This document shows positions 1,519 through 61,245 of a stretch of DNA of 64,000 bases, in pieces; position 1 is the stretch's first letter; the number at the start of each line of letters is the position of its first letter. The translations under genes were made by a program, and so were the position numbers. Below the pieces are notes generated by a model. The model worked only from the letters and a program-made list of their open reading frames with translations, had not been told where the DNA came from and searched no databases. This DNA comes from Sthenelais limicola (lineage: Eukaryota > Annelida > Polychaeta > Phyllodocida > Sigalionidae). The stretch is taken from contig OW804098.1 of the NCBI GenBank assembly GCA_942159475.1, positions 3,386,383 to 3,450,382 of the forward strand, in the 5' to 3' direction.

Positions 1519-1617
1519 TTCTGGCCGCAGACCTTGTTGATAGTGTGACTGTTGTTTCTTGGTGAAACAGGACTGCGTTGTGCAGAGGTTCGGAGATTGG
1601 CTGATAGACCCGACCAA

Positions 1618-3600: not shown

Positions 3601-3608
3601 GAAGCGAG

Positions 3609-6600
3609 ATGGGATCCGGGGAATTGTTTGCGCTTCCTAGTACTACAGTTCATGATCGTTCTGTGTCTAAAACGAAGACTGGGTGTGGGGCTCTAGCTCC
3701 CGTAAGTACTACTGAGCCCGGGGCTGTCTGCCGGGGAGGTACGAAAGCGGTTCGGGCGCGTCGAGCGGACGAGACCACTCATTCCAGGAATGGTGTAGAT
3801 TCCAGGGATTTTCCTGTAGTTGCAGACTCCGACAACGTTTGTTGGGGTAAGGCAGGTTACCAAGCTGAGTTAGGGCATTTGGTGATAGCGGAGTCAGGTC
3901 CCATCACGGGTGCGAGTATTCAGAAAGTTTCCGTGGATGATCAGAGGGTGTTGAAGCTCCGTGATCCATATATTGCGGATAGATGGTACGCTTCAGTATC
4001 AGTGAATGGGGATGTTGGTGATTTCCTTTGGGATCCGGGCGCTACCACTAGCCTGGTGACGAAGACGTTCTATGACGCCCTGCGTCGGCCGCCGCCACTG
4101 GTTCCGTGCCGGTTGGCGTGCACGATGGGAAACGATTCACAGATTACTGTGCATGGTAGCGCTCTGTTCCCTTTGACGTTAGGGAAACGGACGTACATGT
4201 TAACGTGTTTGGTAGTGTCGGGTTTATCTGGCCCGGAGTCTGGAATCTTGGCGCAGGACTTCAATCTTGTGCATAGATGTTATGTGTGCTGGTCAGGGAA
4301 ATTGTCTTTGAATGATGGAGAAGACGCTGTGATCATGCATCACTGGCGTGGTGATCCGCCAAAGCAATTGGGTCCCTCGGTGAATATGATTACAACTAGT
4401 GAAGTAGACGATGGAAGACAGGTAACACTTCGGAAAGCGGTGGTCCTTCGTCCTTATTCAGCTACACTGGTTAAGATCGATGTTCGCGGGTGCTCGGATT
4501 CGTCAACGGGTTTGATGTTTGAGCCAGACCAGGGTTTTCTAAAGGATTACACTGTGGGATGCCTTGATTCATATATCTCGGCTGACGCTACGGCGACTGT
4601 GGCCTTTAGTAATCCGTCCGCAGAAACCCTACGTTTAGGTGTTGATATGGTGGTTGGACGAGTGAGTGATGTGACGCTGCTATCGTCACCTACTACTAGT
4701 CCGGAGGGGGTGAATATGTGTCCGGAGGACAAAATAAAGGATGCGATCATCAACTCTATACAGGTGGTAGAAAACCCGTCTGTGGTAGATGAGGATTTGA
4801 TTGCCCCGGATGACCCTGTGCCACCAAGTACGGAATGTCCGTTGAAGAAACTTGTAAGGGACTCTGATTTGACTGATCCGACAGAGAGGTCAAAACTGAT
4901 GGGTCTTCTTAATGAGTTTCGTGGGAGCTTTTCGCTACCCGGAGATGGTTGGAGAGAAGATCCGGGTTGCACCCATGTCGTGAAACACGTAATTGATACT
5001 GCCGACTCTCGACCTATTAAGCTTGCTTATAGGCGGATTCCGGTGTCTAAGCGTGAAGTAGCCGAAGCGGAGATCTGGAAGATGTACGAGCAGGGGCGAA
5101 TTGAGCATTCTAATAGTCCGTGGGGAGCACCCATCGTGATTGTTGGTAAAAAGGATGGAACTCAACGCTTCTGCGTCGATTATCGCCAGCTCAATTCCGT
5201 CACAGTGAAGGACAGCTTTCCACTCCCTAGAATAGACGAGTGTGTCGAGGCGTTGGGCGGAAATAAATGGTTCTGCACCCTCGACCTGGAAAGTGGGTAT
5301 TGGCAGATAGCGATGGACGAGGAGAGTAAGCAAAAGACGGCTTTCCTGTCCAGCGTTGGATTGTTTCAATTCAAGGTTATGGCCTTTGGATTGTGCAATG
5401 CTCCTGCCACATTCCAGCGGATGATGGATCGTATGCTAGACGACCTTCGCTGGAAGTCTTGTCTGGTGTATCTCGATGATATCGTTGTATTTGGCGAGAC
5501 ATTCGATGGTTGTCTGCTAAATCTGCGATTGGTTCTTGAACGAATCCGGGAATACAGGTTGAAGCTGAAACCCAAGAAGTGTGAACTATTCCGCCGTGAA
5601 GTGGAGTACTTGGGGAGATTAGTATCGGAAAAAGGAATTCGGGCGGACCCGAAGAAGATACAGAAGGTCCGTGACTGGCCCGTTCCGAAGACTGCGAGGG
5701 AAGTTAGACAATTTATAGGATTCGCGTCCTACTACAGGGAATTCCAACCGAATTTCGCTGCAGTTGTCTCCCCGTTGCAGGACGTAGTAACGGCAGCCGG
5801 AAGAGAAAAACGATACACAAAAGCAATAAACTGGACCCCGGAGTGTGCAGTTGCCTTCCAGAGCGTGAAAGATTTGTTAACCCGGGCTCCGTTGTTGAGA
5901 TACCCTCGAAAGGAGGGGGAGTTTATCTTGGACACGGATGCCAGTGGGTATGGCATGGCAGGGATTTTGTCCCAGGTCCAAGATGGTAAGGAGGTAGTCC
6001 TTGGGTACGCTAGTAATAGCTTGGATAAAGCCCAACGGAACTACTGTGCGACCAAACGAGAATTGTTGGCCGTGCTTACCTATCTGAAGAAATTCCGGCA
6101 CTATTTATTAGGGAATCGGAATTTCTTTGTTCGGACGGACCATGCTTCGCTGCGTTGGCTCCTGAATTTCAAGGATCCTATGGACATGCTGGCGCGCTGG
6201 TTAACCCAGGTGCAAGAGTATGGCCTGGATCAGCGAATGATTCTCCATAGAGCGGGGAAGAAACATGTAAATGTCGATGCGCTTTCCCGGGTTCCGACCC
6301 GGAAGTGTGCTCGATTTGACTGTGTTGATTGTGGGGCGCACGACGCTGTTGTTGCTGCGACCACTGTGACCCTTGCTGCTACGGGGGAAATCATCCGGAC
6401 AGCTCAGCAAGACGACCCAGAGATCCTAAGAGTGATTGCTATAGTGGAAGGAGAAGTCTCGGTTCCGGACAAGCAGTCCCTGTCCGGTGAATCAGACGAA
6501 TTCTGTACCTATATGCATAACTTGGGGAGTTTGTCGATGAAGAATGGTGTGCTGTGCTTGTCGTGGACTCGACCTCGCACAGGGATCACGTACGTGCGCA

Positions 6601-8174
6601 AAGTAATTCCTACTGCGCTTCGCTATGAGATATTCCAGGGAATGCATGGACCGAAGACGGTTGGGCATTTCGGATCTTTCAAGACTGGTTGGACAGCCAA
6701 GAAGAAGTACTTCTGGCCCAACATGAGAAGTGATCTGAAAAGGTGGCTCAGGGCATGTCCGGAATGTAGCATGCGAAAGACGAGGGGTGGTGGCGGAATC
6801 ATGCCTCTCAAGAAGGAATTGCATGGAGAACGCTGGAGTCGTATTGGATTGGATATAATAGGTCCGTTCCGTCTTACCCCCAGGGGTAATAACTACATTA
6901 TGGTAGTGACGGATCACTTTTCAAAGTGGGCGGAGACCTATCCAATGCCAGACCACACGGCTGAGAGATGTGCGGAAGTTCTCTTCAGGGAATGGATCCT
7001 CCGGTTTGGTTGTCCCGTATCGTTGCAAACGGACGGAGCACCAGAGTTTCGGTCCACCCTGTTGCGGAGCTTGTTGGAGATGCTAGGAGTTGAAAAGCTC
7101 ATTACCTTACCGTATAGACCGCAGTCAAACGGTCAAACGGAAAGAATGAACCGAGTCCTAGTAGAACAACTGTCCTGTCTGACGGATTATAGTGCGACGG
7201 ATTGGGATTTGTTGGCTCCGTGTGTCGCTCACGCGTACAGAGCAAGTGTGCATGCGAGTACGTTATGCACACCTAACTCTGTGGTGTTTGGTGACGAGCT
7301 GGTAACGCCTATGGACTTGGTCCACGGGGTGGAACCAGGCGGTCTGGATTTTCCATGCAGAGTGCCGTTCGTGGAGAATTTGAAGCATTGGTTGAAGCTT
7401 GGGCATAAGTTCGTCCGTGAGAATCTCGGAGTGGCAGCGATCCACCAGAAACGGGATTTCGATCGGCGAGCTAAGCCTAAGACCTTTGAAGTGGGGGATG
7501 TTGTATACCGCTACAACCATCCGCAGGCCAGTAAAAAGATCGGTCCCAAGTGGGATGGCCCCTTCAAAGTAAAACGGTTTATAGGGGGTACAACCTATGA
7601 ACTGGAAACAGTTGCAGGAGTCGTAAGGTGTCATGTCAACTACCTTAAGCAAGCTTTTGACAAGGACGGACCCGTGCAGGTTGTTAATCTTGACAGAGCA
7701 CCGGAGTTCCGTGCATTGCAGAAGGCTGGCCGCGACGTCCTCAGACTTGAAAGTGGGAAAGTAATAGCTGGCAAGGAATGTCCTGATCTGAAAGAGAGGG
7801 AAAAAGTCTCCGTGTTTGTGAAACGACGGGGAAGGCCTAAGAAGGGGAAACAGAGTTTGAAAGCCACGAAGACCGCTGTTCTGCCTGTTCCGCCCTTGCC
7901 CCAAGCTAACGTTGTCATGCGGAAACGCGGAAGACCACGAAAGCTACGGTTGCCAGACCCGCCTGTTCCGGCTGTAGCTCCACGGAGGGGTAGACCTCGT
8001 AAAGTTGTTGCTGATCCGCTGCCGAAACCTACCGCAAAGAAAGTAGGGAGGCCGGCGAAAGATTCAGTAGCACGAGTAAAGAAAGTCAGAAAGGATAGAG
8101 CTAGCTCTCCTGTCGAGGTTGTAAAGGGGAAACGGGTGCGCCGTCCCCCAGACCGATTACAACTGAAGTCTTAG
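3609..8174 (+). CDS. pol: Pol polyprotein: protease, RT, RNase H, integrase, AT-hook tail
   Basis: The intact 1521-codon frame has the domains in Gypsy order. A retropepsin-like motif WDPGATTSLV places the catalytic Asp at about residue 142, but the usual DT/SG is DPG here. RT carries YLDD at about 621-624. RNase H has LDTDASG with Asp at about 775. Integrase has an HHCC zinc region (about 1012-1050, ending ACPEC) and a D-D-35-E core: LDIIG near 1082, QTDGAPEF near 1142 and QSNGQTERM near 1178. WDGPFKV is a GPY/F-like module. The last 120 residues hold four GRP-core AT-hook-like motifs (about 1406, 1438, 1458 and 1477) in a Lys/Arg/Pro-rich tail, and I saw no typical chromodomain. The start is the ATG 8 bases after the gag stop, in a different frame. 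Expression could be by reinitiation or frameshifting; the sequence does not decide. Confidence 0.93.
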   Translation: MGSGELFALPSTTVHDRSVSKTKTGCGALAPVSTTEPGAVCRGGTKAVRARRADETTHSRNGVDSRDFPVVADSDNVCWGKAGYQAELGHLVIAESGPITGASIQKVSVDDQRVLKLRDPYIADRWYASVSVNGDVGDFLWDPGATTSLVTKTFYDALRRPPPLVPCRLACTMGNDSQITVHGSALFPLTLGKRTYMLTCLVVSGLSGPESGILAQDFNLVHRCYVCWSGKLSLNDGEDAVIMHHWRGDPPKQLGPSVNMITTSEVDDGRQVTLRKAVVLRPYSATLVKIDVRGCSDSSTGLMFEPDQGFLKDYTVGCLDSYISADATATVAFSNPSAETLRLGVDMVVGRVSDVTLLSSPTTSPEGVNMCPEDKIKDAIINSIQVVENPSVVDEDLIAPDDPVPPSTECPLKKLVRDSDLTDPTERSKLMGLLNEFRGSFSLPGDGWREDPGCTHVVKHVIDTADSRPIKLAYRRIPVSKREVAEAEIWKMYEQGRIEHSNSPWGAPIVIVGKKDGTQRFCVDYRQLNSVTVKDSFPLPRIDECVEALGGNKWFCTLDLESGYWQIAMDEESKQKTAFLSSVGLFQFKVMAFGLCNAPATFQRMMDRMLDDLRWKSCLVYLDDIVVFGETFDGCLLNLRLVLERIREYRLKLKPKKCELFRREVEYLGRLVSEKGIRADPKKIQKVRDWPVPKTAREVRQFIGFASYYREFQPNFAAVVSPLQDVVTAAGREKRYTKAINWTPECAVAFQSVKDLLTRAPLLRYPRKEGEFILDTDASGYGMAGILSQVQDGKEVVLGYASNSLDKAQRNYCATKRELLAVLTYLKKFRHYLLGNRNFFVRTDHASLRWLLNFKDPMDMLARWLTQVQEYGLDQRMILHRAGKKHVNVDALSRVPTRKCARFDCVDCGAHDAVVAATTVTLAATGEIIRTAQQDDPEILRVIAIVEGEVSVPDKQSLSGESDEFCTYMHNLGSLSMKNGVLCLSWTRPRTGITYVRKVIPTALRYEIFQGMHGPKTVGHFGSFKTGWTAKKKYFWPNMRSDLKRWLRACPECSMRKTRGGGGIMPLKKELHGERWSRIGLDIIGPFRLTPRGNNYIMVVTDHFSKWAETYPMPDHTAERCAEVLFREWILRFGCPVSLQTDGAPEFRSTLLRSLLEMLGVEKLITLPYRPQSNGQTERMNRVLVEQLSCLTDYSATDWDLLAPCVAHAYRASVHASTLCTPNSVVFGDELVTPMDLVHGVEPGGLDFPCRVPFVENLKHWLKLGHKFVRENLGVAAIHQKRDFDRRAKPKTFEVGDVVYRYNHPQASKKIGPKWDGPFKVKRFIGGTTYELETVAGVVRCHVNYLKQAFDKDGPVQVVNLDRAPEFRALQKAGRDVLRLESGKVIAGKECPDLKEREKVSVFVKRRGRPKKGKQSLKATKTAVLPVPPLPQANVVMRKRGRPRKLRLPDPPVPAVAPRRGRPRKVVADPLPKPTAKKVGRPAKDSVARVKKVRKDRASSPVEVVKGKRVRRPPDRLQLKS

Positions 8175-9282: not shown

Positions 9283-11316
9283 ATGTCGAAGCCTAGCGAC
9301 GACATCATCGACCTGGACGTCTCCGGTGACTCCGTAGAGGTGCCCATGGAAGACGAGAACGAGTTGTTGGGTGACGGAACCGGATTGATCGGCCTAGCGG
9401 CCATGCAGATCAATGAAGGTGACGACACCTCGGCAATCGAGGAGGATGGTCCGGTCGATCCGGCGCGACCTAAGCGGGGTCGTGCTGCTGATAGACCGGA
9501 GACTAGGTCCCAGTCCAACTCCCCAGTTAAGTCCGCTAGGACTACGGGTGAGCGTGGAAGGGAGTTGGAGCGTAAGCACAACCTCCGAGCAGTAACCGTG
9601 AGTGTGGAGCGTGTTCCGCTGAACACTGCCTCCACCAAGAGTTCTGATGCATCATCTCCTGCTCCGACTTCTGGCAAGTCCGGGACCAGTACCAGCCCTG
9701 GTGCAACGTCCAAGACTCCGGCCGGAAAGAAGAAGCCGGTTGTGAAGGTGCATCGCCAGCGGATCGAGCACAAGACCGAGTTGTATGCCTTGAAGGAGTC
9801 ACAGTGTGATATCCGTGGCCTGTTGACTGCAGGCACCGGGGTCCTTCCCATCAACCCGGCCGATGACTCCCCGGGAGTCCGTGTTCCCCTGGCTGACGAA
9901 AGTGAGGATGAGGATACGGAGTTCGCTGACGATCTCCTGATGGACCGCTTCGAGACCCGTCAGTGGCCCAGTTTGGTTCGACAGGATGCTCTGGATCCTG
10001 GAACGTACCAGAAAGTGTGGGATGCCCCTAGCATCTGGGAACCCGGATTCCGGTGTCCTTTTGCTATTTGCCGTCACAAAGGGATGAATCCTTACGGGAT
10101 TCGTGTCTTTAGAACGAGGCCCCGCCTGTTCCGGCATCTGTGCGAGGAGCACGCCCCCCATCGCATGGTGTGGGAGTGTCCCTCCAGAAGATGTAAGCAG
10201 AAGGTAGACCGCAGGATCGAGTTGGTCCGCCATCTCCAGTACGGAGAAGTGGTGGCTCACAACATGGGATTCGCGGTAGCTGCGGAGAAGGTGATGAAGC
10301 TGTCACCGTCGATTCAGGTGAATCATCTGTTCAGTCGGATGGCTTACCTGACGTCGACAGACCTTCAGGTGATCCGGCGGAAGGCTACACACAAGTTTGT
10401 GAAGCCTAAGGCCGTGGCTGCCCCTTCTTCTCCGGCTCCCTCCACTTCTGGCACGTCGAGTTCCACTCCGTCAAAGAAGAAGAAGAGGAAAAGATCGCGT
10501 TCGCACTCCGGCTCTAGCGAGCGTGAAGGCTCTCCTGTCCCCGTGAAGAAGAGCAAGAAAACGAAAACCCTGACTGCCGTAGCCAAGCAGGAGGTCACGG
10601 ACATGGAAGCTAAGCTCCCGGAGCAAGCTGCCGTGTGCCATGTTATACAGCAGTCAAGGGCGGATGTTGGGGAGGCTCTCGAGCTGGCTCGGGCTGCCCT
10701 GACAGACGTTGAGACCCAGGTTGGCACTGCTGTAGACCGGTTGACGGAACCTCTACAGGCGCTGGAAGCTGTGCGAGAGTCCATCGGGGAGTTAGCTGCT
10801 CTCCGTGAGGAAAATCGCACCCAGTCGCGCCTGATCAGAGACTTGAAGGCGAGTCTTCACCGGAGTGACTTGCAGGTTAGGTCTCTGGAGGAAACCGTCA
10901 GTTCCCTGCGAGCAGATTTGGAGGCTAACGGTGTGTCAGCGCCTGACACAAGTGAGGATCGTGAGCCCTCCGGCTCCGTCCAATTTGGCCCCAGCAGTGC
11001 AGCTGGCAGTCCGGTCAGGAGAAATCCTTTGACCACTGCCCCCGCTATGATGACGGATGCGGATCGCTACTTATGGATGGGTCAAATGATGGCTTCCTTC
11101 ATGAGTGCTCCGCCTCCTATGTCCCTGCCCATGGCCGGAACGTTTCCTGGTTACGGGAATCCCGGCATGAGTCCGCTAATGATGGCCTCCCTAGCACACA
11201 TGGGAAGCCCATTGCGGGGTCCGGCTCCGGCGGCTCAAGGTGCCCCTCCAGAGGATATGGAGGATTCAAGTAGCACCCATAATGAGACGCCCGGAGACGA
11301 GCAGCAGCCGCTGTAG
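9283..11316 (+). CDS. Third ORF of LTR element: zinc-finger/coiled-coil protein
   Basis: This is an intact 677-codon ORF of unknown function. It starts at an ATG in good context (GACGAGATG). The N-terminus is acidic (about residues 1-60). A Ser/Thr/Pro/Lys-rich linker follows. At about 258-325 are two Cys/His modules: CPFAIC followed by RHLCEEH, and CPSRRC followed by VRHL...H, resembling C2H2 fingers. Then comes a Lys/Arg tract KKKKRKRSRS at about residue 400, a likely nuclear localisation signal. A long Leu/Glu-rich helix (about 445-560) looks like a coiled coil. The C-terminus is rich in Met, Pro and Gly. I see no signal peptide, transmembrane segment or furin-like site, so it does not look like an envelope protein. 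A DNA- or RNA-binding nuclear accessory protein is an inference. Codon use resembles gag and pol, so it belongs to the element. Confidence 0.8.
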   Translation: MSKPSDDIIDLDVSGDSVEVPMEDENELLGDGTGLIGLAAMQINEGDDTSAIEEDGPVDPARPKRGRAADRPETRSQSNSPVKSARTTGERGRELERKHNLRAVTVSVERVPLNTASTKSSDASSPAPTSGKSGTSTSPGATSKTPAGKKKPVVKVHRQRIEHKTELYALKESQCDIRGLLTAGTGVLPINPADDSPGVRVPLADESEDEDTEFADDLLMDRFETRQWPSLVRQDALDPGTYQKVWDAPSIWEPGFRCPFAICRHKGMNPYGIRVFRTRPRLFRHLCEEHAPHRMVWECPSRRCKQKVDRRIELVRHLQYGEVVAHNMGFAVAAEKVMKLSPSIQVNHLFSRMAYLTSTDLQVIRRKATHKFVKPKAVAAPSSPAPSTSGTSSSTPSKKKKRKRSRSHSGSSEREGSPVPVKKSKKTKTLTAVAKQEVTDMEAKLPEQAAVCHVIQQSRADVGEALELARAALTDVETQVGTAVDRLTEPLQALEAVRESIGELAALREENRTQSRLIRDLKASLHRSDLQVRSLEETVSSLRADLEANGVSAPDTSEDREPSGSVQFGPSSAAGSPVRRNPLTTAPAMMTDADRYLWMGQMMASFMSAPPPMSLPMAGTFPGYGNPGMSPLMMASLAHMGSPLRGPAPAAQGAPPEDMEDSSSTHNETPGDEQQPL

Positions 11317-14559: not shown

Positions 14560-15414
14560 TCAACAATTCAACACTACGCAGATGACACCGTCCTATTCTG
14601 CAGTGACAAAAATCAATCAATCATCTATCAAAAACTCCAAACAGATCTCGATTGGATAGACACTTGGTGTAAAGCAAACAAAATTTCAATGAATGTAGCA
14701 AAAACTCAGTATATTAACTTCAAAAAAAGTACTACAAAAATGGCAATAGACCAGAAACATGCTCTTACCCTGGGTGAAGAACTATTATCCCAGGTAAAAG
14801 ATTACAAGTATTTAGGCCTCATAATAGATGAGCACCTATCTTTCAAGCAACATGTAAACAAATTGATAGACAAACTACGATACAAAGTGAGGCTATTGTC
14901 CAGCTCACGTTATATGTTGACTAAAAAAGCAAAAACAGACATAATCAAAATGTTAATTATCCCCAATATCGATCAAGGGGATATATTCTATTCATCAACC
15001 AATAAACACCTGTTAAAAAGGTTGGATTCGCTGTTAAACTCGGCAATCAGATCCTTACACAATCTCCACAAAAGAGCAAACGTGGTAGAAGAACTAGGGG
15101 AGCTAAATATTTTACCAAATAATGTAAGAAGGGATGTACATATCCTTGAAAGCGCACACTATTTGGCACAAACTATTTCAAATTTAGATCAAAGAAAATT
15201 ACCCACCAGAAGCCATTCGATAAAAAGAAGAAACCTAAAAATTGACCGTCCAAAATTATCATTATACCAAAATAGTTTCTTATACAAAGCAAAAGTGGCC
15301 TGGAATTCATTACCAACCAGAATCCAGGCACTAGAATCAAAAAAGCATTTCAAACAAGAGGTAGAAAAGACTCAAAGAAACAAAAGTCATCTCGAAAATA
15401 GAGAAAAACAATAA
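14560..15414 (+). pseudogene. CR1-like LINE relic: C-terminal half of reverse transcriptase
   Basis: The open frame starts at the RT catalytic motif YADD (14575-14586). It continues through WCKANKISMNVAKTQ, the thumb (YKYLGLIIDEHLSFKQHV) and the C-terminal tail typical of CR1/Jockey-group ORF2 proteins (NSLPTRIQALESKKHFKQEV). It ends near 15412. Endonuclease and fingers are missing, so the copy is 5'-truncated. Its 3' end lies at 22161-22445, beyond the younger LINE inserted at 15428. Upstream, 14406-14560 shows a short TA tract and no clear coding. Confidence 0.85.
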
Positions 15415-15427
15415 ATATGTACACCCC
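15415..15427. repeat. Target-site duplication, left copy
   Basis: ATATGTACACCCC is repeated exactly at 22148-22160. The two copies bracket the L1/Tx1-like LINE and prove its insertion into the older LINE relic. Confidence 0.9.
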
Positions 15428-16203
15428 GGACTTCCGGTTTATCTGGGGAGCGAAAAGGTGTCCGTCAAAAGGCTTGTGCCTTGTTGTCCCTTTTTTTTCA
15501 GATTAACCGAAGTGTACGAAGACAAGTTTTTGTCAAAACATCCGTGAAATATCCAAGAATAGGCAGGACTTCTGTTTAAACCATAAGGCTTAAAGTGTCA
15601 AGTGGATTAGACATTATATAGTTGGCGCACGAGGCTAGGCTTCGGCATCCCAGTCGCCATATTGAATATCAACGGTTACGACGAAGACAGGAATAAGTCC
15701 TTAGGAGAGGGTAAAACTTCTTCAAACAAGGGCAATAGACGCAAAAAGTGAACAAGAAAGTGCACGGATTTAAGTTTGTGAGCAAAGAATTGGACTTTTA
15801 CCGTATACAGTGAGTTTATTCTCATCTAATTGAGTTTGCCGCCATAGACATGCGCACTCGGTACTAGTTGATCGGGACTAGGAAGCCGAGCTTGCACAGA
15901 AAGCCGCCATCTTGAATACCGTATCGGTCAAAAGTAAATGCTTTATATATGATAGTACAAGACAATATGAGTGACTTTGAATTGGCAGAAAGGTCGGATT
16001 TCATGTTATAAAGGCTTAATCGAACTCTCCAGAGATATCGACCTGAATTACCGAAAAAAAATAGAAGTTGTGTGCACCATCTCTCAAAGTACCAGTGCGC
16101 AAGACAAATAGGAACCGGAAATATAGACAAAACAATAACATCCGGCAAAAACTGGCAGTTTTATCGAAATCTAAACTTAGACAATTGAATCTAAGGGATT
16201 TTA

Positions 16204-17628
16204 ATGAAGCAGGGTAAAGAAAGCGACACAAATAAGAGACGAAGAAGTGAAGACGGCTCAGAGATATCTAGTAGCAAAAAACCAGTCACTGAAATGGCAG
16301 GCTTTTCGAATGCGGATATAAAGAAAATGTTTGATGATCTGAAGCTGCAGATAGCCACCTCGGCAAACAATCACAAGGAGGCAGTAGACAAAGTCCAGAA
16401 ACAAGTGGACCAGGTTGAATGTGATAACTTTGTCAGAGACAAAAGAGTGGACGATTTGGAAAAAGCTATGAAGCAACAAACGGAAGAAATGGAAATAATG
16501 AGGATTAATTCGGTCAAGAAGAATGACCCTCGTCTGCTAGCACTTGAACACTCAACAATGGGTGACGAGGAAGATGGGATTAGAAAACAGATCCAAGAGT
16601 TAGAGCTGAACCTGATAATCGATGGCATAACAAAGAATGAAAATGAGGACGTGTTAAGCTTGAAGGTAAAAGTTGACGACATCTTTGAAAACCTTATGGG
16701 TGTCATCAGAGGCCTGCAGTATGAAACGAAAAGGATGGGAAAAGGTCTGATGGCGCCGACCATGGTATCCTTTAATACTCTAGACGAAGTTAAAGCTGTA
16801 TGGAGTAAGAGATCCAATCTGGAGAAAACTGTTGATGCGGAAAATAAACGCCTTTTCTGGATTAAGAAGGACCTGCCGCTTGTAATCAGGAGGAGAATTG
16901 CTAGGGCCAGGCCCTGTGTGGCCGCCGCAAGACTGTCTGGAAGGTACAATGATGTGGCTAATGCCCACGGTGACGTGATTCTAGACAAAAAGAGATATAA
17001 ATTCAACCAACTCGAATTGCTACCGAAACAATTCACCCCGGCCTTCTTGGCAAAACGAGAAGATGGAAATACCTTTGTCTTCTTCACGAGGGAATGTCCC
17101 TTGTCTAACCACTACGTTGCAAACTTCAAAGCTGGGAAGAGGTGGTTCAACTGTGTTGAACAATATCTGGCGTATACCAAAGCCATGTTAGATAATGATA
17201 TCAACAAGGCAGAGTTCGTGATGGAATTAGAGGATCCGGCAAGATGCAAAACCTCCTTGGACGCCTTTGTTTCAGACGAGGTCTGGGATAAGTGGGAGGA
17301 AGGTTTGATGGATACCCTCTCAAGAGGTCTGAGACGAAAAATCAGACACAACGAGCATATAGCTGACTACTTACTGGCCACCGATGGAAAAGTTTTGGGA
17401 GAAGCTTCTCCATCACAGTCACATTGGGGCATCGGCATGAGTCTACATAATCCTGAGGTGCTAAACCAAGAAAAGTGGACCAAGAATGGTAATCTACTAG
17501 GAAGAGCGTGGATGGCCGTCAGGACTCGTCTGATAGAAAAGATGGAGAGAGAGAAGGCAGAAGAGGAAGACACCAAAGGTTCGGCTGAAGAAGGCATGGA
17601 CGTGGTCCAAGGGAAATCTTCTGATTAA
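16204..17628 (+). CDS. LINE ORF1 protein with C-terminal NADAR domain
   Basis: The frame has 474 codons. It starts with a Lys/Arg/Ser-rich segment, followed by a heptad-like coiled coil (about 40-125). An RRM-like region (about 133-215, starting ELELNLIIDGI) and a basic region up to about 280 follow, the usual plan of L1 ORF1 RNA chaperones. Residues about 290-447 then match the NADAR/YbiA family. LSNHY is at 300-304, Glu319 is in NCVEQYLAYTKA, LLATDGKVLGEAS contains Glu400, WGIG follows with Trp408, and NGNLLGRAWMAVR comes near the end. Known NADAR proteins act on NAD/ADP-ribose derivatives, and some reverse guanine ADP-ribosylation. I infer an ADP-ribosyl-hydrolase-like module carried into the LINE RNP. 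The acidic tail is Glu/Lys-rich. The fusion is one uninterrupted frame, so it is not an assembly join of two ORFs. Confidence 0.88.
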   Translation: MKQGKESDTNKRRRSEDGSEISSSKKPVTEMAGFSNADIKKMFDDLKLQIATSANNHKEAVDKVQKQVDQVECDNFVRDKRVDDLEKAMKQQTEEMEIMRINSVKKNDPRLLALEHSTMGDEEDGIRKQIQELELNLIIDGITKNENEDVLSLKVKVDDIFENLMGVIRGLQYETKRMGKGLMAPTMVSFNTLDEVKAVWSKRSNLEKTVDAENKRLFWIKKDLPLVIRRRIARARPCVAAARLSGRYNDVANAHGDVILDKKRYKFNQLELLPKQFTPAFLAKREDGNTFVFFTRECPLSNHYVANFKAGKRWFNCVEQYLAYTKAMLDNDINKAEFVMELEDPARCKTSLDAFVSDEVWDKWEEGLMDTLSRGLRRKIRHNEHIADYLLATDGKVLGEASPSQSHWGIGMSLHNPEVLNQEKWTKNGNLLGRAWMAVRTRLIEKMEREKAEEEDTKGSAEEGMDVVQGKSSD

Positions 17629-17675
17629 ATATTGGTTGTTGATATAGTTCACGTTAGACCCTGTTAACTGATACA

Positions 17676-17888
17676 ATGTATGTACACACAGCTTCAGCAA
17701 AGCCCTTGCCCAGGCTAAAATGGGTAAAAAAATGTAAGCTAGTCAGGTATGAAGATGTAAATCTCACAGGTGTCAACGGGATATATGTTAATAGAAGATA
17801 TGGAGATGTGCTATGTGAAACAGGATGGCAGTTTGACGGAAAGTGTAGATGGGAGTCCCTGGTAAAAACTTTTAATGGAAGGGAATAA
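17676..17888 (+). CDS. Small ORF overlapping the ORF2 start
   Basis: This 70-codon frame lies in the ORF1-ORF2 spacer and contains WVKKCKLVRYEDVNL and a Gly/Arg/Trp-rich end. Its stop codon lies inside the first codons of ORF2, whose ATG is at 17875, giving a 14-base overlap. No family is recognised. It could be translated and couple ORF2 translation by termination-reinitiation, or be chance. Conservation in other copies of the element would decide. Confidence 0.35.
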   Translation: MYVHTASAKPLPRLKWVKKCKLVRYEDVNLTGVNGIYVNRRYGDVLCETGWQFDGKCRWESLVKTFNGRE

Positions 17889-20800
17889 CATAAATTTCTA
17901 CTCTCTTAATGTAAACGGCGCAGCCAATATAATCAAAAGAAAAGCAATTTTTAGATTCTTGGGTTCAAAGAAAAGATCAATTTTTGCCCTGCAAGAAACG
18001 CATAGCTCAGCTAAAGAAGTCAAAATATGGAAGAACCAATGGCAGGGTGTTTCACATTTTGTACACGGTAGAAGAAACGCCAAAGGGGTAGCGCTGCTAA
18101 TATCTAAGGATCTCAATATTACTATACATAAGAAAGGGGGGGACGATCAGGGAAGAATAGCCCATATGGATGTGTCTATCGAGCAAAAAATGTTATCAAT
18201 ATTTTCTGTATACTTTCCTACGAAGGACAAATACAAAGAACAAGTCGAAATGTGTAAGTCTTTAAGAAATATCATAGAAAGTAAATCAGAATATTCTACC
18301 ATATTAATGGGCGACTTTAATCTTAACATAATGGATATAAATGACTTCTTGAACCTAAGTGAAAGTCAGCAGAGTAAGCTCGAAGGTTTAAGGAAAATGT
18401 TACAAATGATAGAAGATCTCGATATGTGTGATATTATAAAAGAATTATCCGCGGATGGGACCAATATGAATACCTGGTCGAGAAAAGCCCAAAATTCGAG
18501 GCTAGATTACTGTATAATAGACGCGGTTCTTAGACCTGAAGTAACAGAAGTTGGGAATGAATTTTGTGAGCATTCTGATCATAATATAATACATTTTGCG
18601 TTAAAATCTGATGAACAGGCCAGAGGGCCAGGTCTATGGAAATTTAACAAATATCTTTTGAATGATGACGATTATATTGAGATGATGAAAGAAAAGATTG
18701 TCGATGCATATAATACAGAGGGTTTGAGCAGTTCCAAAAATAAATGGGATTACATCAAATTCGTAATTAGAAGAGATACGATACGCTATACTAAGCAGAA
18801 AAATTATGAAAAAAGAAAGAAAGAAAAGGAGTTCAGAAACAGAATGAACGATCTCTTTCAAAAAGGAGTTCTTGATGAAAAAGAGAGCCAAGAGATAGAA
18901 AACATTCAAAATGATTTAAAATTCGAGCAGTACATCAAAGCTCAAGGAGCAATGGCTCGAAGTAGGTCGCAATGGCTGGTAGAAGGTGAAAAACCGACCG
19001 CATATTTCCTTAATTTAGAGAAAAAGGAATTATAAAAGAAAAATAATATCACAGCTAGAATTTGAGGACCAAATAATAAACAAATCTGATGAAATATTAA
19101 AAGCGGAAAAAGAGTTCTATCAGGAGTTATACAGTGAAAAACCAATGATCTCACCTGAATCTAATACCTTTATGTCTGAGTGTTCTAACTCATCCTTCGA
19201 GCAGTTGGATGTCCAATTGCTTAATAGAAGATTGAGTAGTGAAGAGATTAAAAAAACTCTAGATTCCTTTGCGAATAACAAAGCTCCAGGACCAGATGGC
19301 CTCCCAGCGGAATTTTTCAAACGCTTTTGGAGCATATTAGGCCCTATATTTGATGAGGTAATTTATGAATGTGTAGAGGATGATCGTTTGTCAAACGAAA
19401 TGTACAGAGGTGTAGTCTCTCTTATTCCAAAAAAGGATTGTAATCTTAAATTAATTGGAAGCTGGAGACCCATAACCCTGTTAAACTCTGACTACAAAAT
19501 AATCTCAAAAGCTTTAAGCATAAGGCTGAAAAATTGTATAGGTAAGGTAATAAATGAAGACCAATATGGATTCATAAAAAATAGATATATAGGTTGTGCT
19601 GTTAGAAGGCTTGAAGATGTCACGCAATACTTAGAGAAAAACAACAAGAAAGGTCTTTTTGTATCGTTGGATTTCAGGAAGGCGTACGATTCTGTGTCAT
19701 GGAGTTTTTTATATAAATGTTTATCTGATATAGGGATAGGGGACGAATTCTTGAGATGGATAAAGCGATTAATGTTAGGATCGCAATCTTGTATTATTAA
19801 CAATGGATATACCTCTGAGTGGTTTAAGGTGAATAGAGGCGTTAAGCAGGGAGACCCCATATCATCGCTCCTCTTCGTAATTGTTGTGGAAAAACTTGCT
19901 GAGAAGATTCGCAATGACCCTGATTGTAAGGGTATAGTTTTCGGAGGTACTGATAATAGAATCATACAATTTGCAGACGATATGACTGTTATCGCCAGCT
20001 GTGAAAAATCGCTATGTAAAATGATGGAAATCATTGAGGAATTCGGCAGAGTATCAGGGCTACATCTCAATATAGGCAAAACAAGAGGCTTTAACATTAG
20101 GCAAATGGTCCTTTTCCAACCACTGGCAATGAATATAAATTGGGTTAATTCCATGAAAATTCTAGGCGTTCATCTGCTATATCCATATAAAAAAGATTTG
20201 CAAAATGATATGAATTTTGAGTCAGCCTTGGACAAAGCGCGCACAGTTGCCACACATTGGGGAAAGAGAGATATTTCCTTGAAAGGTAGAATTATAATTG
20301 TCAACGTATTAATTATCCCTCTATTCTTGTATGTTGCTAATCTCATAGCAGTAGACGAAAGAATGATATGTGAAATCCAGAGGTTGGTAGGTAAGTTTAT
20401 ATGGAGAGGTGGTAAGCAAAGAGTCGCCAAGCATTATTTAAGCAGAGAGATCGAGGACGGTGGATTAAAACTACATGATATAAGAGCAAAACTAATGTCC
20501 GGAAAATTAAAATGGATCCAGAGGATACTAAATGATCCTGATAGTAAATGGTGTGCTAGCTTAAGAAACACTTTCGGTGCTAATTTAAAAGAAAGGTTGA
20601 AGTGTAGAAGAATAATGATCATGAACGAGTCAAACTTTTATAATGATGTATTCTCGATATGGAATAGATTCTACAGCTCCTGTAAACCAAAATGTAAAAA
20701 AAGTGTACTATGTGAGTCCATATGGTCGAACAGTTGGATCAATCTGGAAGATGCAATATGTAATGTCAAGCTATGGAAGAGAAAGGGCATAAACAAGATA

Positions 20801-21636
20801 GAAGATGTTTAACCAATGATCGAGTCAAAAACAAAAATGAGTTCAAAAGTGATTTCGGTATCAAAATTAATTATTTAGAAGAAATGAGCATAAAAGGGAA
20901 AATCCCTGAACGTTGGATTGCCATAGTAGTCAATGGAGAAATTGATAATTACAAAGAAGAAATATTATGCTCCATTGGGGAAAAACAGATTAACATTAGT
21001 AATGCTCACTTCAAAGAAATATACATAGCAATAAAGGCAGTGCTATATTCTCAGGAAGACAGAAATGTCGATTGGCATGTACGATTTTTACAGAAAGATA
21101 TAGACATATCGAATATGGAATTCAATATATGGTATCGTGTACCTTTTCTTTGCACTAGAAATGTGAGATTACAGTCCTTCCAATATGGGGTAATCAATAA
21201 GTTAACCGTTTGCAATGTCCACTTGTGTGATATGGATATAGTTGTTTCTAATTTATGTAAGTACTGCGACTCAGTGGACGACCTGTTTCACTTCTTTATA
21301 GATTGTGAGAAATCATGCAATTTCTGGCACTGCTTAATAAACTGGGCTAAAAGAAATGTGTATTTAGATAATGAAATAGCTGAGAACATGAATGCTATTT
21401 TTATGATGCTGGGTGTTCCAAGCTTGGAAGAAAAATATTGTGTGTGGAATAATATATTGATATATGCGAGATTTTATATATACAAATGTCGTTTGTTTAA
21501 GGATAACAACTTGTGTTTCTTCGAATTCCTTAGGGAATTAAAATTTAAGTTGAAAACAATGCGTGATGGGGCATTTATAAATGCTTCTCACAAGAAGGAT
21601 TGGAGAAGATGGGAAAAAATATTTGAAACAATGTAG
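17875..21636 (+). pseudogene. LINE ORF2: APE endonuclease, reverse transcriptase, CCHC; two frameshifts
   Basis: The N-terminal endonuclease (17875-about 18610) has FYSLNVNGA, LQETHSS, MGDFNLN, LDYCIID and SDHNIIHF, the residues expected for the exonuclease-endonuclease-phosphatase fold. RT motifs follow in a second frame (19145-20812): SWRPITLLN, VSLDFRKAYDSVSW, GVKQGDPISSLLF and QFADDMTV. The C-terminus (20773-21636) has C-x2-C-x7-H-x4-C in LCKYCDSVDDLFHFFIDC. The frame changes once near 19024-19030 and returns near 20805-20815. Both points lie at short homopolymers (GG and TTT). The total length, 1254 codons, is what an unbroken ORF2 would have, because the two shifts compensate. They could be real inactivating changes or sequencing errors. 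Confidence 0.9.
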
Positions 21637-22147
21637 CAATGTGATAGTTGTATCACTATAATAATGTTATGGTGTTCCCCTCAGACCCCAGTCAAAGTTG
21701 TTCACATGTTTAAGCAGTGATATAAAATATGATCTGAAAACACTCTCCTAGTCAAGTCGGCGTGATAACGTCAAATCCGCGGTCCTTTTTGATTTGTATT
21801 ATATGACCCCCCCACCGTATTATCGGGTCGGATCAATGGGTGCTAGACCGTTGGTGAACCTACGCCTCTTTGTCTGTAATCTTGCCACATGATCTGTAAA
21901 CCCGGACGCTTCTAATGTGTTGCTGGGAAGATGTGTTCTTGCAGTCATAATGATTTTTAGGTGAAAAACTTCAGTAAACGAATGGGAAAAAATAATAACT
22001 ACTGGTTTGCACAGGTCACTTTATTGTCCTTTTTCTAATTTTTGTTTCTAAGTTGAGAAGGAAGCGATGTATCAAATGTAAAAGCTTCTCACTGTTGACT
22101 TTGTCTACTTTGGAAATAAAGACCCGGTGTTGGGAAAAAAAAAAAAA
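21637..22147 (+). other. LINE 3' UTR and poly(A)
   Basis: This is about 500 bases of non-coding sequence after the ORF2 stop. It contains a C-rich stretch (ACCCCCCCAC near 21810), an AATAAA signal near 22117 and a terminal A run that abuts the right target duplication. Plain A tails are typical of L1-group elements. Confidence 0.75.
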
Positions 22148-22160
22148 ATATGTACACCCC
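22148..22160. repeat. Target-site duplication, right copy
   Basis: ATATGTACACCCC is identical to 15415-15427. Its first A merges with the poly(A) tail, so the left edge is uncertain by a base or two. Confidence 0.9.
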
Positions 22161-22445
22161 TCAGATGTGAAAACAATTAGGTGCTAACCATATCTTATCT
22201 GTACTACTTTATATAGGGCTGTACTTGTACTGGCTCGCTTATATTGTTTATATTATATTATATTATGTTGCTTTTATTCTGTCTTGCCATTTTAACATTC
22301 TAGTTGCCTATGTAGATATCTGTCCTTTAGTAAAGGTAACGGCTGGAAGAGCTGGGACCTTCCCAGAGGCCTGTAGACCTGTTTGTCTATCTCTTGTATT
22401 ACTTAGACAAATAAAAGATTATTCAATTCAATTCAATTCAATATC
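22161..22445 (+). repeat. 3' end of the older CR1-like LINE, with TTCAA microsatellite tail
   Basis: This continues the LINE relic that ends at 15427. It contains GGCTGGAAGAGCTGGGACC, an AATAAAAG signal near 22412 and an (ATTCA)n terminal repeat (about 22420-22440), the kind of short-repeat tail seen in CR1-group LINEs. A related 3' end lies in reverse orientation at 43905-44035. Confidence 0.8.
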
Positions 22446-43249: not shown

Positions 43250-43525
43250 TAAATATCTGGGTATACTTAATTACAGTCTACTACATGTATATGAATAGCC
43301 AGGGATGTATAATGCAATATACCCAATACTCCCTGGGTGTACTTATTACCCAGTTTACTATATATGTTTAGCCAGGGATCTATGATGCCCCGGGGGCACA
43401 CATATGCCAAGGGTCTACTTACTTACCCAGTCTACTATATGTTTAGCCAGGGATGTATAATGCCCCAGGGGCATATTCATGCCCCTGGATGTACTTACTT
43501 ACACAGTCTACTATATGAATAGCCA
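43250..43525. repeat. Tandem repeat, unit about 80 bp, three to four copies
   Basis: ATAGCCAGGGATGTATAATG or a variant with TTTAGCCAGGGAT recurs at about 43296, 43369 and 43443, and partly at about 43520. CCCAGTCTACTATATG recurs between these. Confidence 0.8.
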
Positions 43526-57911: not shown

Positions 57912-60900
57912 TCAAGGTGTGAAATGTTGTTTTAGCTCGAGTAAAATTTCACCGAACTGATTTTTGCCTGGGATGTGGACCGCTGGGTTGAATGCCGGGT
58001 CGTTGAGCTTATGCCCCGTGCCCCATTTTTTATCTGCGGTCATTTCATAGAAATGGTCATATTGCGAGTCTACAAGCTTTTGCCGTAAGTCATCATGCTG
58101 CTGAAACTTAAACCCCGTTATTTCTTTCAAAACACCCCTCTCACCTTGATACCATTGAGGTCCTGGGACAATCTGTGCGCCTTTCTTTTTGATCTCGTAA
58201 GGATTAGTTAGAGACAGAATGTCGGTCGCTAGTTTGGTATTCTTTGGCGTATCAGAGGAGAGAGCTTTGGTGTGTTGAAACGCCTGTTCAACGGAACAAT
58301 ATTCAGTATCATTATAATTAACCCTTTAAGGGCAGAGGGTCTGATAAGGGAGGTTGTCTTTTAAATTGTCCCTTATTGTGGCCGTACCAAGCATTATAAA
58401 AACGAAAAAATCTTTTTAATACGCCAAATATTAGTGAAGTTATAGTCTTTCAAAGTTGCCTGCCTGTTAAATTTTGAGCTAAACTACTTAGCCTAAGTGA
58501 CTTTTTAAAAGGAGATAGATGATGTAAAAGGCAATGATGTCCAGACAGTGAAAATTAATCAGGACAATGCCACATAGTCTTTTTATCACCATTTTGCTGT
58601 AAGAAATGCGATTTGTACTGAGTAAATTGCACATGAACCTAAATTTTCTGCTCTACTTGTTATGAGTTGTAATTTAGAAATTTCATGTTTTATGTCACCA
58701 TAGCAACCATTTACCAGGTATACACCTTTTCAATTGAAAAAAACGGGCTGTTTGGTTGCCATGGAAACCATTCTAAAGGAACCATTTTCAAAATCTATCA
58801 ACTTTTACGACCATTCATTTTATTCAGCATGAAAAACTGAATGAATGGCATTTTTTCAAAAAAATAAATTTAGATTTAGTTTTTTTCCAATTTAAGAATG
58901 AATATTGCATAAATAGAGTTATAATTCTTCCAATTTAGCCACAATCTATTATGGACACCAAATTTTCTGCATCTACCAGGCACAAGAACATTTTTTTGAT
59001 TATTGGTCCTTACAACATTTGGAACACATTGACATAGGAGGAAGAGGGTAAAATAGCAGGTTTTATTAAATGAATAGCATGTCTTATAGGCAATATTATG
59101 GGGAAAATGACCCAAATAATAGTGCATAAATGCACTACTCGCCCTGTATGATAGAATTCACCTCTAAAAATAAAAGAAAAAAGAAATTTTATTCTACAGG
59201 AGTGATGCCATTTTATAGATACTTAACCAATACCCTACTCATGAGGAGCTAATTGCTGCACCAACTTCCACAACTGTTTACTAATGGTAACTATGGATGG
59301 GATATGTTGCTTAGTGACTAATATGTACATAGATAAATTACAACAACTCCATTTCACTCATTGGGATTAATTCAGACATGTGATTGCTTTTAAAATGCTA
59401 TTTTTCAACTGGATTGTCCACAAGGGGCTGATTCTCCATAGAATTTCATTTGTGACCATGGAAATGCCTCGTTGCTAAGCAACCAAGGCAGATAGAACAA
59501 TTTCAAGGATACCATTGAATTCCTTGGGGTCAATTTAGTGGGGGAAGGTGTCATCAAAATCAAAATATCCCTAAAACTAATGAAGATATGGGCCGATTAC
59601 TTCTCAGCCAATCAGATTTCAGCTAATTTGCATAAATAGGGCCCAAAATGGCCGAAATATTGAAAATAAAAAATGCCAGGCAATCTCATTGTTTTCAGCA
59701 CCCTTGAAAACCCCTATATCAATTGAGAAAATAAAATAAACATTGATATTTAAAAAAATGGCCATAAGGCCCTGGACTACTGATAGGGTTAATCTTACAG
59801 GGGTAGAAATTGGACAAGTAAACCAAGTCGCCTTGGATTCCGATCGCTTTTGTACCTGGAAACTCTTGTAGTTTCGCATTCGAGGGTCTAGCTCCGTTGG
59901 GCAGCTTTTCTAGGTCATTGACCCCGTAGGTAATACCCTTGTAGATCAATGACGTCATGCGCACGTTTGGGGGGTTTTCCTTGTCGATGGCTGCAAGGAG
60001 TTTCCCACTCTTCCGGATCTTCCCGCTTTGTTTCTGAAGTATTTCAGGTACATCGCGGTTGATCCAAAGGTTTGCATTATTGGCGTGGCGTTTGATATCT
60101 GGGGCTCTGCGTAGGACCTTGTCTTTCATTGAAATGGAGAGGAGGGTGACGAGGATGGGACGAGGTTTCCTGGGGTTTTCTTTCCCCAATCGGTATGCTA
60201 TGTCAATATCATCGGCATCAAAGTCGTTGACGGCCATTGAGAAGAGGTCTGCGAGTTTCTGAGATAGGGACTCATTTCGTTCTTCTGGGATCCCATCCAC
60301 TGTTAGATTTAATTTCCTGGTTTTTAGGTCTAGGAATTCGCAACGTTCAGTTAAACGATCTAACTGGTCTTGTAGTTTTGATCGCTCTTGCTTTGATTTT
60401 TCTAGCTCGCTTTGCATTTGGTCTTGCCTGTCTGTCATCGCATCCAGGTCACCGTTATTGGGCCCTGGGGCGGTGGGCGTGGCAGCTTGCAGTGGTTGTT
60501 GCGGGAGTTGTGCTAGTATATTATCTTTTAGTTGTGGTTGGACTTTATCCTTAAATAAGTCTATTAGACTTTTTTCATCAACTTTTTGCTCGACGTCTTT
60601 AACCCTTTTTTGGATAGCTTCGATTTTCTCCTTATTTGATTTCTTGAATGAGTCAAAACCGTCAGTAAAAGCTCTGATTTCTGCTTTTATTGCGTCTGTT
60701 TGTTGGGCCATGGCAATTTCATTATGTTTCTTCAATTCATCTAGGTAAGTTGCTAGTGTTGCTGTATTTTGTTCCTTCATTGAAGTCAAATGATTATTGA
60801 GCATTAGTTGCAAACTAGAGGTGTTTGAAATTTGGTCTTTGGATTTGTGATCACTGGGATCAGCTGCTAGGTCATTTTCTTGGCCTATTACTTGTGCATG

Positions 60901-61245
60901 GCCTGGGGCAGAAGCAACCGCAGGTGCAGGTTGCTGTTCTGCTTCTTGGCCTAGTTTTTGGGCCGACATTGTTTGTATATTGTGTTCGTCGCGGTCTAGT
61001 GATTCAGTGCCTGGCGACCTTGACCTTTGTTTATCACAAGAATTGTTATTATCTATATCAATAATCGTAGGATCGGATTTGCTACTACTACGTGTTGCTC
61101 TTTTAGTATTTAGGGAATCAGAATTATCAATATTTTGCTCACTGAGTGTCCATTTGAGTTTGTTTTGAAGGCGTTGGAGGGCTGGTTTGGTCACCGGCGT
61201 TCCCGCGGCGTCCCCGGACGATATTGGGGGATGCGATGTATTCAT
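57912..61245 (-). pseudogene. LINE ORF1 with C-terminal NADAR domain, split by a MITE
   Basis: Translation starts at ATG 61245. Ser/Asn/Gln-rich sequence is followed by coiled coils (about 150-235 and 280-325). An RRM-like region starts at about residue 330 (LNLTVDGIPEERNESLSQKL, then DIDIAYRLG), followed by the usual basic ORF1 C-terminal domain. A NADAR domain begins at about residue 470: LSNFYPCKI, then the frame hits the TTAA-flanked MITE at 58318-59792. On the far side NADAR continues with YCSVEQAFQHTKAL, FYEMTADKKWGTG and PGKNQFGEILLELK, ending in a stop at 57912. The coding parts total 1863 bases, exactly 621 codons counting one TTAA, so the frame was intact before insertion. With the MITE present the protein is cut early in NADAR. 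ORF1 proteins coat LINE RNA. Confidence 0.88.
58318..59792. mobile_element. piggyBac-like MITE, 1.47 kb, TTAA target
   Basis: TTAA flanks both ends (58318-58321 and 59789-59792). Termini are CCCTTTAAGGGCAGAGGGTC on the left and, inverted, CCCTATCAGTAGTCCAGGGC on the right. CCC ends and TTAA duplication are hallmarks of piggyBac-type elements. The interior has no transposase. It has several X-box-like words: 58694-58708, 58755-58768, 59453-59466 and 59471-59483. It interrupts ORF1 of the LINE within its NADAR domain. Confidence 0.8.

Follow-up and report, generated by a model that had tools for sequence, protein, structure and literature searches.

A 64,000-nucleotide stretch of the genome of the polychaete Sthenelais limicola (assembly GCA_942159475.1, contig OW804098.1, positions 3,386,383 to 3,450,382 of the forward strand; called the window below) contains two long interspersed nuclear elements (LINEs), here LINE A and LINE B, whose first open reading frame (ORF1) encodes a protein ending in a NADAR domain (Table 1). 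In LINE A, ORF1 and the NADAR domain form one continuous frame. A Pfam profile scan gave 79.2 bits for PF08719 (curated cut-off 35.1), the NCBIfam match is to a riboflavin-intermediate N-glycosidase model, above its cut-off, and the predicted structure of the domain has a YbiA-like fold in a structural comparison with VIA-align. The part ahead of it fits a LINE-1 type II ORF1p, with a coiled coil, a single RRM (RNA recognition motif) and a C-terminal domain (CTD), in that order; in L1 ORF1p these three make a trimer that coats the element RNA. LINE A ORF1p is a LINE-1-type ORF1p with an added C-terminal NADAR domain. Weak Pfam matches to the coiled coil (Poty_coat, Tup_N, CHASE3) were rejected as under cut-off.

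The element that carries this ORF1 is full length, with an A-run directly preceding its right 15-bp repeat, and its ORF2 is split over three frames in the window copy. The reverse transcriptase scores 213 bits against human L1 ORF2p and 75 against R2, which places LINE A on the L1/Tx1 side of the LINEs, although as between L1 and Tx1 the placing goes no further than these two comparisons. An L1-like reverse transcriptase, an apurinic/apyrimidinic (AP) endonuclease, an A-rich tail and target-site duplications, the features expected of the L1/Tx1 group, were all found. The initial annotation, made from the letters of the window alone, had proposed a NADAR domain fused to ORF1 of an L1/Tx1-like LINE, in one uninterrupted frame from the coiled coil onward. 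This was borne out by the flanking repeats, by a reverse transcriptase closer to L1 than to R2, and by the PF08719 search and the YbiA comparison of the predicted structure, both of which it had suggested. LINE A itself appears by eye to have landed within the 3' part of a different LINE-like element (14689–15414 and about 22161–22440, forward strand), which ends in AATTC repeats; the ORF at 14689–15414, at whose end LINE A lies, resembles by eye the C-terminus of ORF2 of another LINE and has no Pfam match.

LINE B has the same ORF1-NADAR layout, ahead of a different ORF2. Its window copy is interrupted within the NADAR domain, but with the 1,467-bp insertion removed the flanks join in frame to give a protein of 620 amino acids (aa), in which PF08719 scores 65.9 bits (E 6.9e-18). 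This joined frame reflects LINE B itself, because the four sister copies L058–L061, 97–99% identical, have an unbroken 620-aa ORF1 ending in NADAR. Copies L063 and L064 (72% identical) also have the whole ORF1, and L062 (82%) ends at 564 aa, within the domain. The order ORF1-NADAR, 214-aa-type ORF, ORF2 is found in all four other copies retrieved for this comparison, with ORF1s 99, 74, 49 and 41% identical to the window's, and since each has an ORF of 210–215 aa between ORF1 and ORF2, LINE B is a three-ORF element. ORF2 is whole in just one of the four (L065, 952 aa); two others read 559 and 657 aa, and the last reads 786 aa up to the edge of the retrieved sequence. It is far from L1 (77 bits), with about 26% identity to the LINE A reverse transcriptase; LINE B is tentatively called CR1-like. 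The middle ORF has conserved GDSRVR and DGCHL sequences, presumably SGNH-hydrolase motifs, a label that no tool confirmed: there was no significant Pfam or PDB match (best PDB profiles E 0.06, SCO3965, and 0.1, a GDSL-like lipase), and a single-sequence model with pLDDT 31 was not used. The 1,467-bp insertion has no ORF of at least 120 aa and looks like a non-autonomous piggyBac-type element.

Table 1. Features of LINE A and LINE B in the window (positions counted from its first nucleotide)
Feature	Position	Strand	Remarks
Left target-site duplication of LINE A, 15 bp	15413..15427	+	Identical to 22146–22160
LINE A, L1/Tx1-like, full length, A-rich 3' end, ~6.7 kb	15428..22145	+	Enclosed by exact 15-bp repeat
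ORF1 of LINE A, 474 aa	16204..17628	+	Coiled coil, RRM, CTD, NADAR, variable tail
Coiled coil, residues 36–133	16309..16602	+	Predicted helices 36–107 and 109–133; human L1 ORF1p match overlaps from residue 87
RRM and CTD, residues 134–284	16603..17055	+	
NADAR domain, residues 293–443	17080..17532	+	
ORF2 of LINE A, endonuclease part	17875..19035	+	PF03372 E 3.7e-11; frame broken after
ORF2 of LINE A, reverse transcriptase part	19145..20812	+	PF00078 E 1e-42; human L1 ORF2p 213 bits
ORF2 of LINE A, C-terminal part, third frame	20773..21636	+	From ORF list; sister copies mostly single-frame
Right target-site duplication of LINE A	22146..22160	+	Exact match to left repeat
ORF2 of LINE B, endonuclease and reverse transcriptase, 955 aa	53404..56271	-	PF00078 E 6.8e-41; PF03372 E 2e-14
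Middle ORF of LINE B, 214 aa	57178..57822	-	Present in 4/4 other retrieved copies
ORF1 of LINE B, second part of NADAR	57912..58317	-	Unsplit in sister copies L058–L061
Insertion in LINE B NADAR, 1,467 bp	58322..59788	-	TTAA on both sides; CCCT... at both ends, inverted; missing from L058–L061
ORF1 of LINE B, first part: coiled coil, RRM, CTD, start of NADAR	59719..61245	-	Frame continues into insertion

Elsewhere in the window there is a Gypsy-like long terminal repeat (LTR) element body (1552–8174, forward strand), with, in order, a CCHC zinc knuckle, reverse transcriptase, RNase H and integrase in a single frame of 1,521 aa. A 677-aa ORF (9283–11316, forward strand) is rich in charged and low-complexity stretches and has Cys/His-containing parts, with no Pfam family above cut-off; as a guess, its product could be gag-like and belong to an element of the DIRS type or a related one. 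A tandem repeat at 43288–43525 has a 75–76-bp unit in about 2.5 copies.

A search of the genome (1.13 Gb in 161 contigs) with LINE A ORF1 gave at least 90 matches, this being the number scored out of 4,831 candidates. Among the 90 scored matches, 11 including the window copy are 96–100% identical, and the remainder fall into families at about 79, 75, 72, 57 and 55% identity; 78 of these 90 have no stop, and 88 extend at least to residue 433. Absence of the domain from all other copies of the family, which the initial annotation had named as fatal to its claim, is contradicted by these 88. Thirty-two of the 90 were retrieved, 20 as 8.2-kb stretches and 12, from the lower half of the list, as ORF1 only. 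All were drawn from stop-free rows, so that their ORF1s are open by choice and the conservation figures are biased toward intact copies. ORF1 is open in all 20 of the long loci, which were selected for absence of stops, while the state of ORF2 played no part in choosing them; it is a single frame of 1,244–1,256 aa in 15, reads 1,156 aa in one, and is broken in four. In the ten copies nearest to the window's, blastn matches span at least 6,700 bases of LINE A and the ORF1 DNA is 95.7–98.7% identical. Direct repeats of 11–24 bp surround 11 of the 20 copies, nine of these among the ten nearest. One of the nine copies without flanking repeats (L009) matches end to end, and in the other eight the match falls short of one or both ends. 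The near-identical ORF1 copies, together with the flanking repeats, suggest recent movement of LINE A.

Conservation is uneven along the protein. Mean pairwise identity among 17 ORF1 representatives is 0.49 for the coiled coil, 0.57 for the RRM, 0.73 for the CTD, 0.68 for NADAR and 0.24 for the tail. Within family A, dN/dS is 0.05 for NADAR, 0.04 for the RRM, 0.05 for the CTD and 0.15 for the coiled coil. Most pairs from different families (for LINE B, part of the pairs) are saturated at synonymous sites, so that the ratio is not quantifiable there. Among 17 diverged ORF1s of the same genome, chosen as open-frame copies, 50 of 159 NADAR columns are invariant versus 0 of 31 in the tail. As judged from these alignments, the NADAR domain is upheld about as well as the RNA-binding part of ORF1p, by purifying selection.

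Active-site residues were numbered as in the P. nicotianae NADAR (PMC11543638) and mapped by alignment onto LINE A ORF1. P. nicotianae E43, K50, W89, E125 and W133 correspond to LINE A E319, K326, W364, E400 and W408, all five of which are identical in 33 of 33 ORF1s from its own genome (the window copy and the 32 others). E43 and K50, largely conserved across the NADAR superfamily, are both present in LINE A, and E400 is the glutamate that the YbiA subfamily has at 125, rather than Asp or His. Across a wider set of 30 ORF1s that includes LINE B, E43 is found in all 30 and E125 in 28, the exceptions (P0025 and P0028) being cut or out of frame; the K50 position is K in 19, R in 10 and S in 1. 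Across 27 ORF1s just nine of the 159 NADAR columns show no variation, and these include both glutamates. The two tryptophans are also kept in the diverged families, LINE B among them: cut or out-of-frame sequences aside, the W133 position is W or F, and the W89 position is S in a single row. In LINE B the alignment shows equivalents of E43, K50, E125 and W133 retained in eight distinct copies, chosen for open frames, two of which were read under two ids each (L058/L065 and L063/L066).

Relatives of LINE A ORF1 in a set of 5.8 billion proteins number 18, all with a precomputed NADAR, and the 13 that were rescanned all pass the Pfam cut-off. Ten were found with LINE B ORF1, of which nine have NADAR and P0025 is truncated within the domain; three of the ten (P0026, P0027 and P0029) cluster with the LINE A kind in trees. 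The LINE A and LINE B groups are homologous over both RRM-CTD (hhalign E 3e-28) and NADAR (1e-30). In trees of 56 and 66 NADARs those of LINE B form one clade (support 100/100 and 100/99), while the L1/Tx1 rows do not, and the second tree, which used nine of 16 bacterial loci and omitted P0049, has four label changes, at least two of them forced by well-supported branches. Four proteins (P0037, P0040, P0042 and P0047) were classed differently in the two trees, first as "other" and then as ORF1, their upstream residues having been judged by eye. Monophyly was not rejected for the L1/Tx1 rows (p-AU 0.08) or for all ORF1 NADARs (p-AU 0.16), with long branches involved. The second tree leans toward more than one gain or loss of NADAR, and a single origin is compatible with the data. 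A search of viral contigs with P0001 gave four pattern matches, none of them a relative; the NADAR alignment has no stretch conserved enough for a pattern search of these contigs. A viral fold search with NADAR put phage and giant-virus NADARs on top and also listed the polyproteins of Ingleside virus and yellow head virus.

NADAR domains have been reported in retrotransposons before. The ORF1s of several Crassostrea gigas Tx1 LINEs appear to hold a YbiA-family NADAR, for which a role in processing RNA intermediates was suggested (PMC12477816). Like LINE A these are L1/Tx1-group ORF1s with NADAR, but the report is a one-sentence mention with a supplementary alignment, and the available text mentions no second LINE type. 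LINE A is probably of the same kind, being likened by description and not by sequence. The remark in the initial annotation that the fusion had not been characterized therefore holds for its function, as far as the literature searched shows, but not for the fusion itself, which was already in print. Beyond PMC12477816 no further report of LINE NADARs, and no paper on DUF1768 in a retrotransposon context, was found in a search mostly without subscription papers, preprints and Repbase. To the extent of that literature, the second, three-ORF LINE type, the copy numbers, the structure and active-site analysis and the evidence for purifying selection are new.

Other known systems are less close. 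An Ectocarpus Gypsy lineage is also a retrotransposon with NADAR, but it is an LTR element in which the domain is N-terminal in Pol rather than C-terminal in ORF1, and its authors consider a bacterial origin possible (PMC12477816). Human LINE-1 ORF1p (2ykp and 2yko) is of type II, which as defined in PMC4120745 is without NADAR, a word absent from the text of that paper. The P. nicotianae NADAR (8bau) and E. coli YbiA (2b3w) share the fold and the E43, K50, W89, E125 and W133 positions with LINE A but have no ORF1 part, while LINE A lacks counterparts of R79, Y84, D86, R93 and D130. DarT1-associated NADAR antitoxins have the fold and the E43 and K50 positions, but they have Asp for E125 and adjoin DarT1 (PMC11543638), where LINE A has the YbiA-type Glu; no DarT1 link was seen, as there is no ADP-ribosyltransferase (ART) family match in the four frames of LINE A or in the 12 that were Pfam-scanned of the window's 24 ORFs of at least 120 aa. 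Invertebrate RNA viruses are likewise RNA-borne parasites whose own proteins include NADAR, in their case in a polyprotein with the viral polymerase and not, as in LINE A, on an RNA-coating protein; these NADARs largely exclude macrodomains and have been proposed to strip host-set ADP-ribose from macromolecules (PMC9503650). Nematode SNA-3 is an animal NADAR protein linked to RNA, but it is a host splicing protein with three NADARs and no transposon (PMC9303266).

NADAR enzymes remove ADP-ribose from guanosine in DNA and RNA, and are the only hydrolase family, of those tested, that acts on ADP-ribosylated RNA bases (PMC11543638; PMC11833690). Because of these activities, it is plausible that the LINE A domain removes ADP-ribose from the element's RNA or cDNA, or counters host ARTs. 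By family resemblance, it would be an N-glycosidase or ADP-ribosyl-guanosine hydrolase, or failing that provide an ADP-ribose-binding pocket; tethered on the ribonucleoprotein particle (RNP) by ORF1p, it would act in cis, on the RNA and the newly made cDNA of the element that encodes it. Host or parasite ARTs would mark guanine in these nucleic acids, and the ORF1p NADAR would remove or neutralize the mark so that reverse transcription and integration could proceed. A shellfish DNA guanine ART, CARP-1, has a proposed role in innate immunity and/or NAD control. An ORF1p-borne NADAR acting in cis against guanine ADP-ribose is tentatively put forward here, with a little short of an even chance of being right.

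Several observations weigh against such a hydrolase. By sequence alignment the window protein has A, E, W, L and Q where 8bau has the ligand contacts R79, Y84, D86, R93 and D130, equivalences that are unsure because the aligned loop has insertions and deletions. The Asp that the YbiA subfamily has five residues after the Glu, to which D130 is tied by spacing, is replaced by Q405 in the window protein, and among the 33 own-genome copies position 405 is Q in 21, K in 4, I in 3, V in 2 and M in 2, with one not displayed; this Asp has been reported as important for N-glycosidase activity (PMC9303266). In the E. coli C7 NADAR, R for K50 left hydrolysis intact in vitro but did not rescue cells (PMC11543638). 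No report of guanine ADP-ribosylation of retrotransposon nucleic acids was met in the literature, as far as its text was available. The Scabin-like family PF22596 has no matches in the S. limicola genome, which was also counted on this side, but its control was silent in all 14 genomes, so that nothing follows about a host guanine ART. As to the contact positions, the alignment puts P, R and K of E. coli YbiA opposite Y84, D86 and R93, and YbiA is active on guanosine-ADP-ribose RNA, if less so than the C7 NADAR (PMC11833690), so changes of this kind need not abolish the enzyme.

That LINE A lacks the YbiA-type Asp and several ADP-ribose contacts is also what would be expected under the main rival explanation, that NADAR is a non-hydrolytic part of the RNP which aids assembly or export, its pocket holding RNA, a partner protein, or a ligand that is cap-like or ADP-ribosylated, much as SNA-3 serves in nematode trans-splicing. 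The adjoining CTD is somewhat more conserved than NADAR (0.73 versus 0.68), as one shared role in the RNP would predict. Against it, both catalytic glutamates, the basic phosphate-site residue (S in one of 30) and both tryptophans are kept across diverged families including LINE B, with the exceptions already noted (cut or out-of-frame sequences, the row with S at W89, and W or F at W133). SNA-3 is itself impaired by mutation of residues homologous to the catalytic ones (PMC9303266), so that catalysis is possible even there, and the binding or assembly role is considered unlikely. A further explanation, rated as rather improbable, is that the domain acts on a small molecule, such as an ADP-ribose signal (cyclic ADPR, for instance) or, as YbiA does, an intermediate of flavin synthesis, with ORF1p blunting a diffusible host signal or damage metabolite. 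The NCBIfam riboflavin-intermediate match fits this, although that name is based on family resemblance alone, and phage NADARs have been argued to act mainly on small ADP-ribose derivatives, while those of animal RNA viruses have been argued to act on macromolecular adducts (PMC9503650). The placing of NADAR on an RNA-coating protein in two LINE types would favor a substrate bound to nucleic acid.

A NADAR that was acquired and then merely inherited, without any function, would fit the drift of several substrate-contact positions in LINE A, and no phenotype is known. This passive reading is disfavored and held to be very improbable, however, since NADAR exceeds the coiled coil and RRM in conservation among families that are largely saturated at synonymous sites, and the catalytic positions are among those that stay invariant while the tail retains no invariant column. 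An annotation artifact, either a chance match or a host NADAR gene lying beside a LINE, has a negligible chance of being true: it is refuted by the single frame and by the 88 and 78 of the 90 scored matches that reach at least residue 433 and are stop-free, respectively, and the direct repeats around 11 of 20 copies and the homologous fusions in other public contigs also argue against it.

LINE ORF1 proteins are known as RNA-coating proteins, and here a NADAR domain with its catalytic glutamates kept is found on ORF1p in many families and in two LINE types, which extends the one-sentence oyster Tx1 report to a second LINE type. These LINEs offer a genetic handle on whether the nucleic acids of parasites are ADP-ribosylated by their hosts and whether the parasites reverse it. 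A broader proposal, more doubtful than cis action by the LINE A domain, is that ORF1-NADAR is a counter-defense module of at least two LINE superfamilies, stripping guanine ADP-ribose from retrotransposon RNA or cDNA; ancient descent, exchange of ORF1s or separate gains would all be allowed. If this is true, the persistence of ORF1-NADAR, beside the NADARs of invertebrate RNA viruses, would point to an unrecognized host defense against mobile elements by ADP-ribosylation of nucleic acids.
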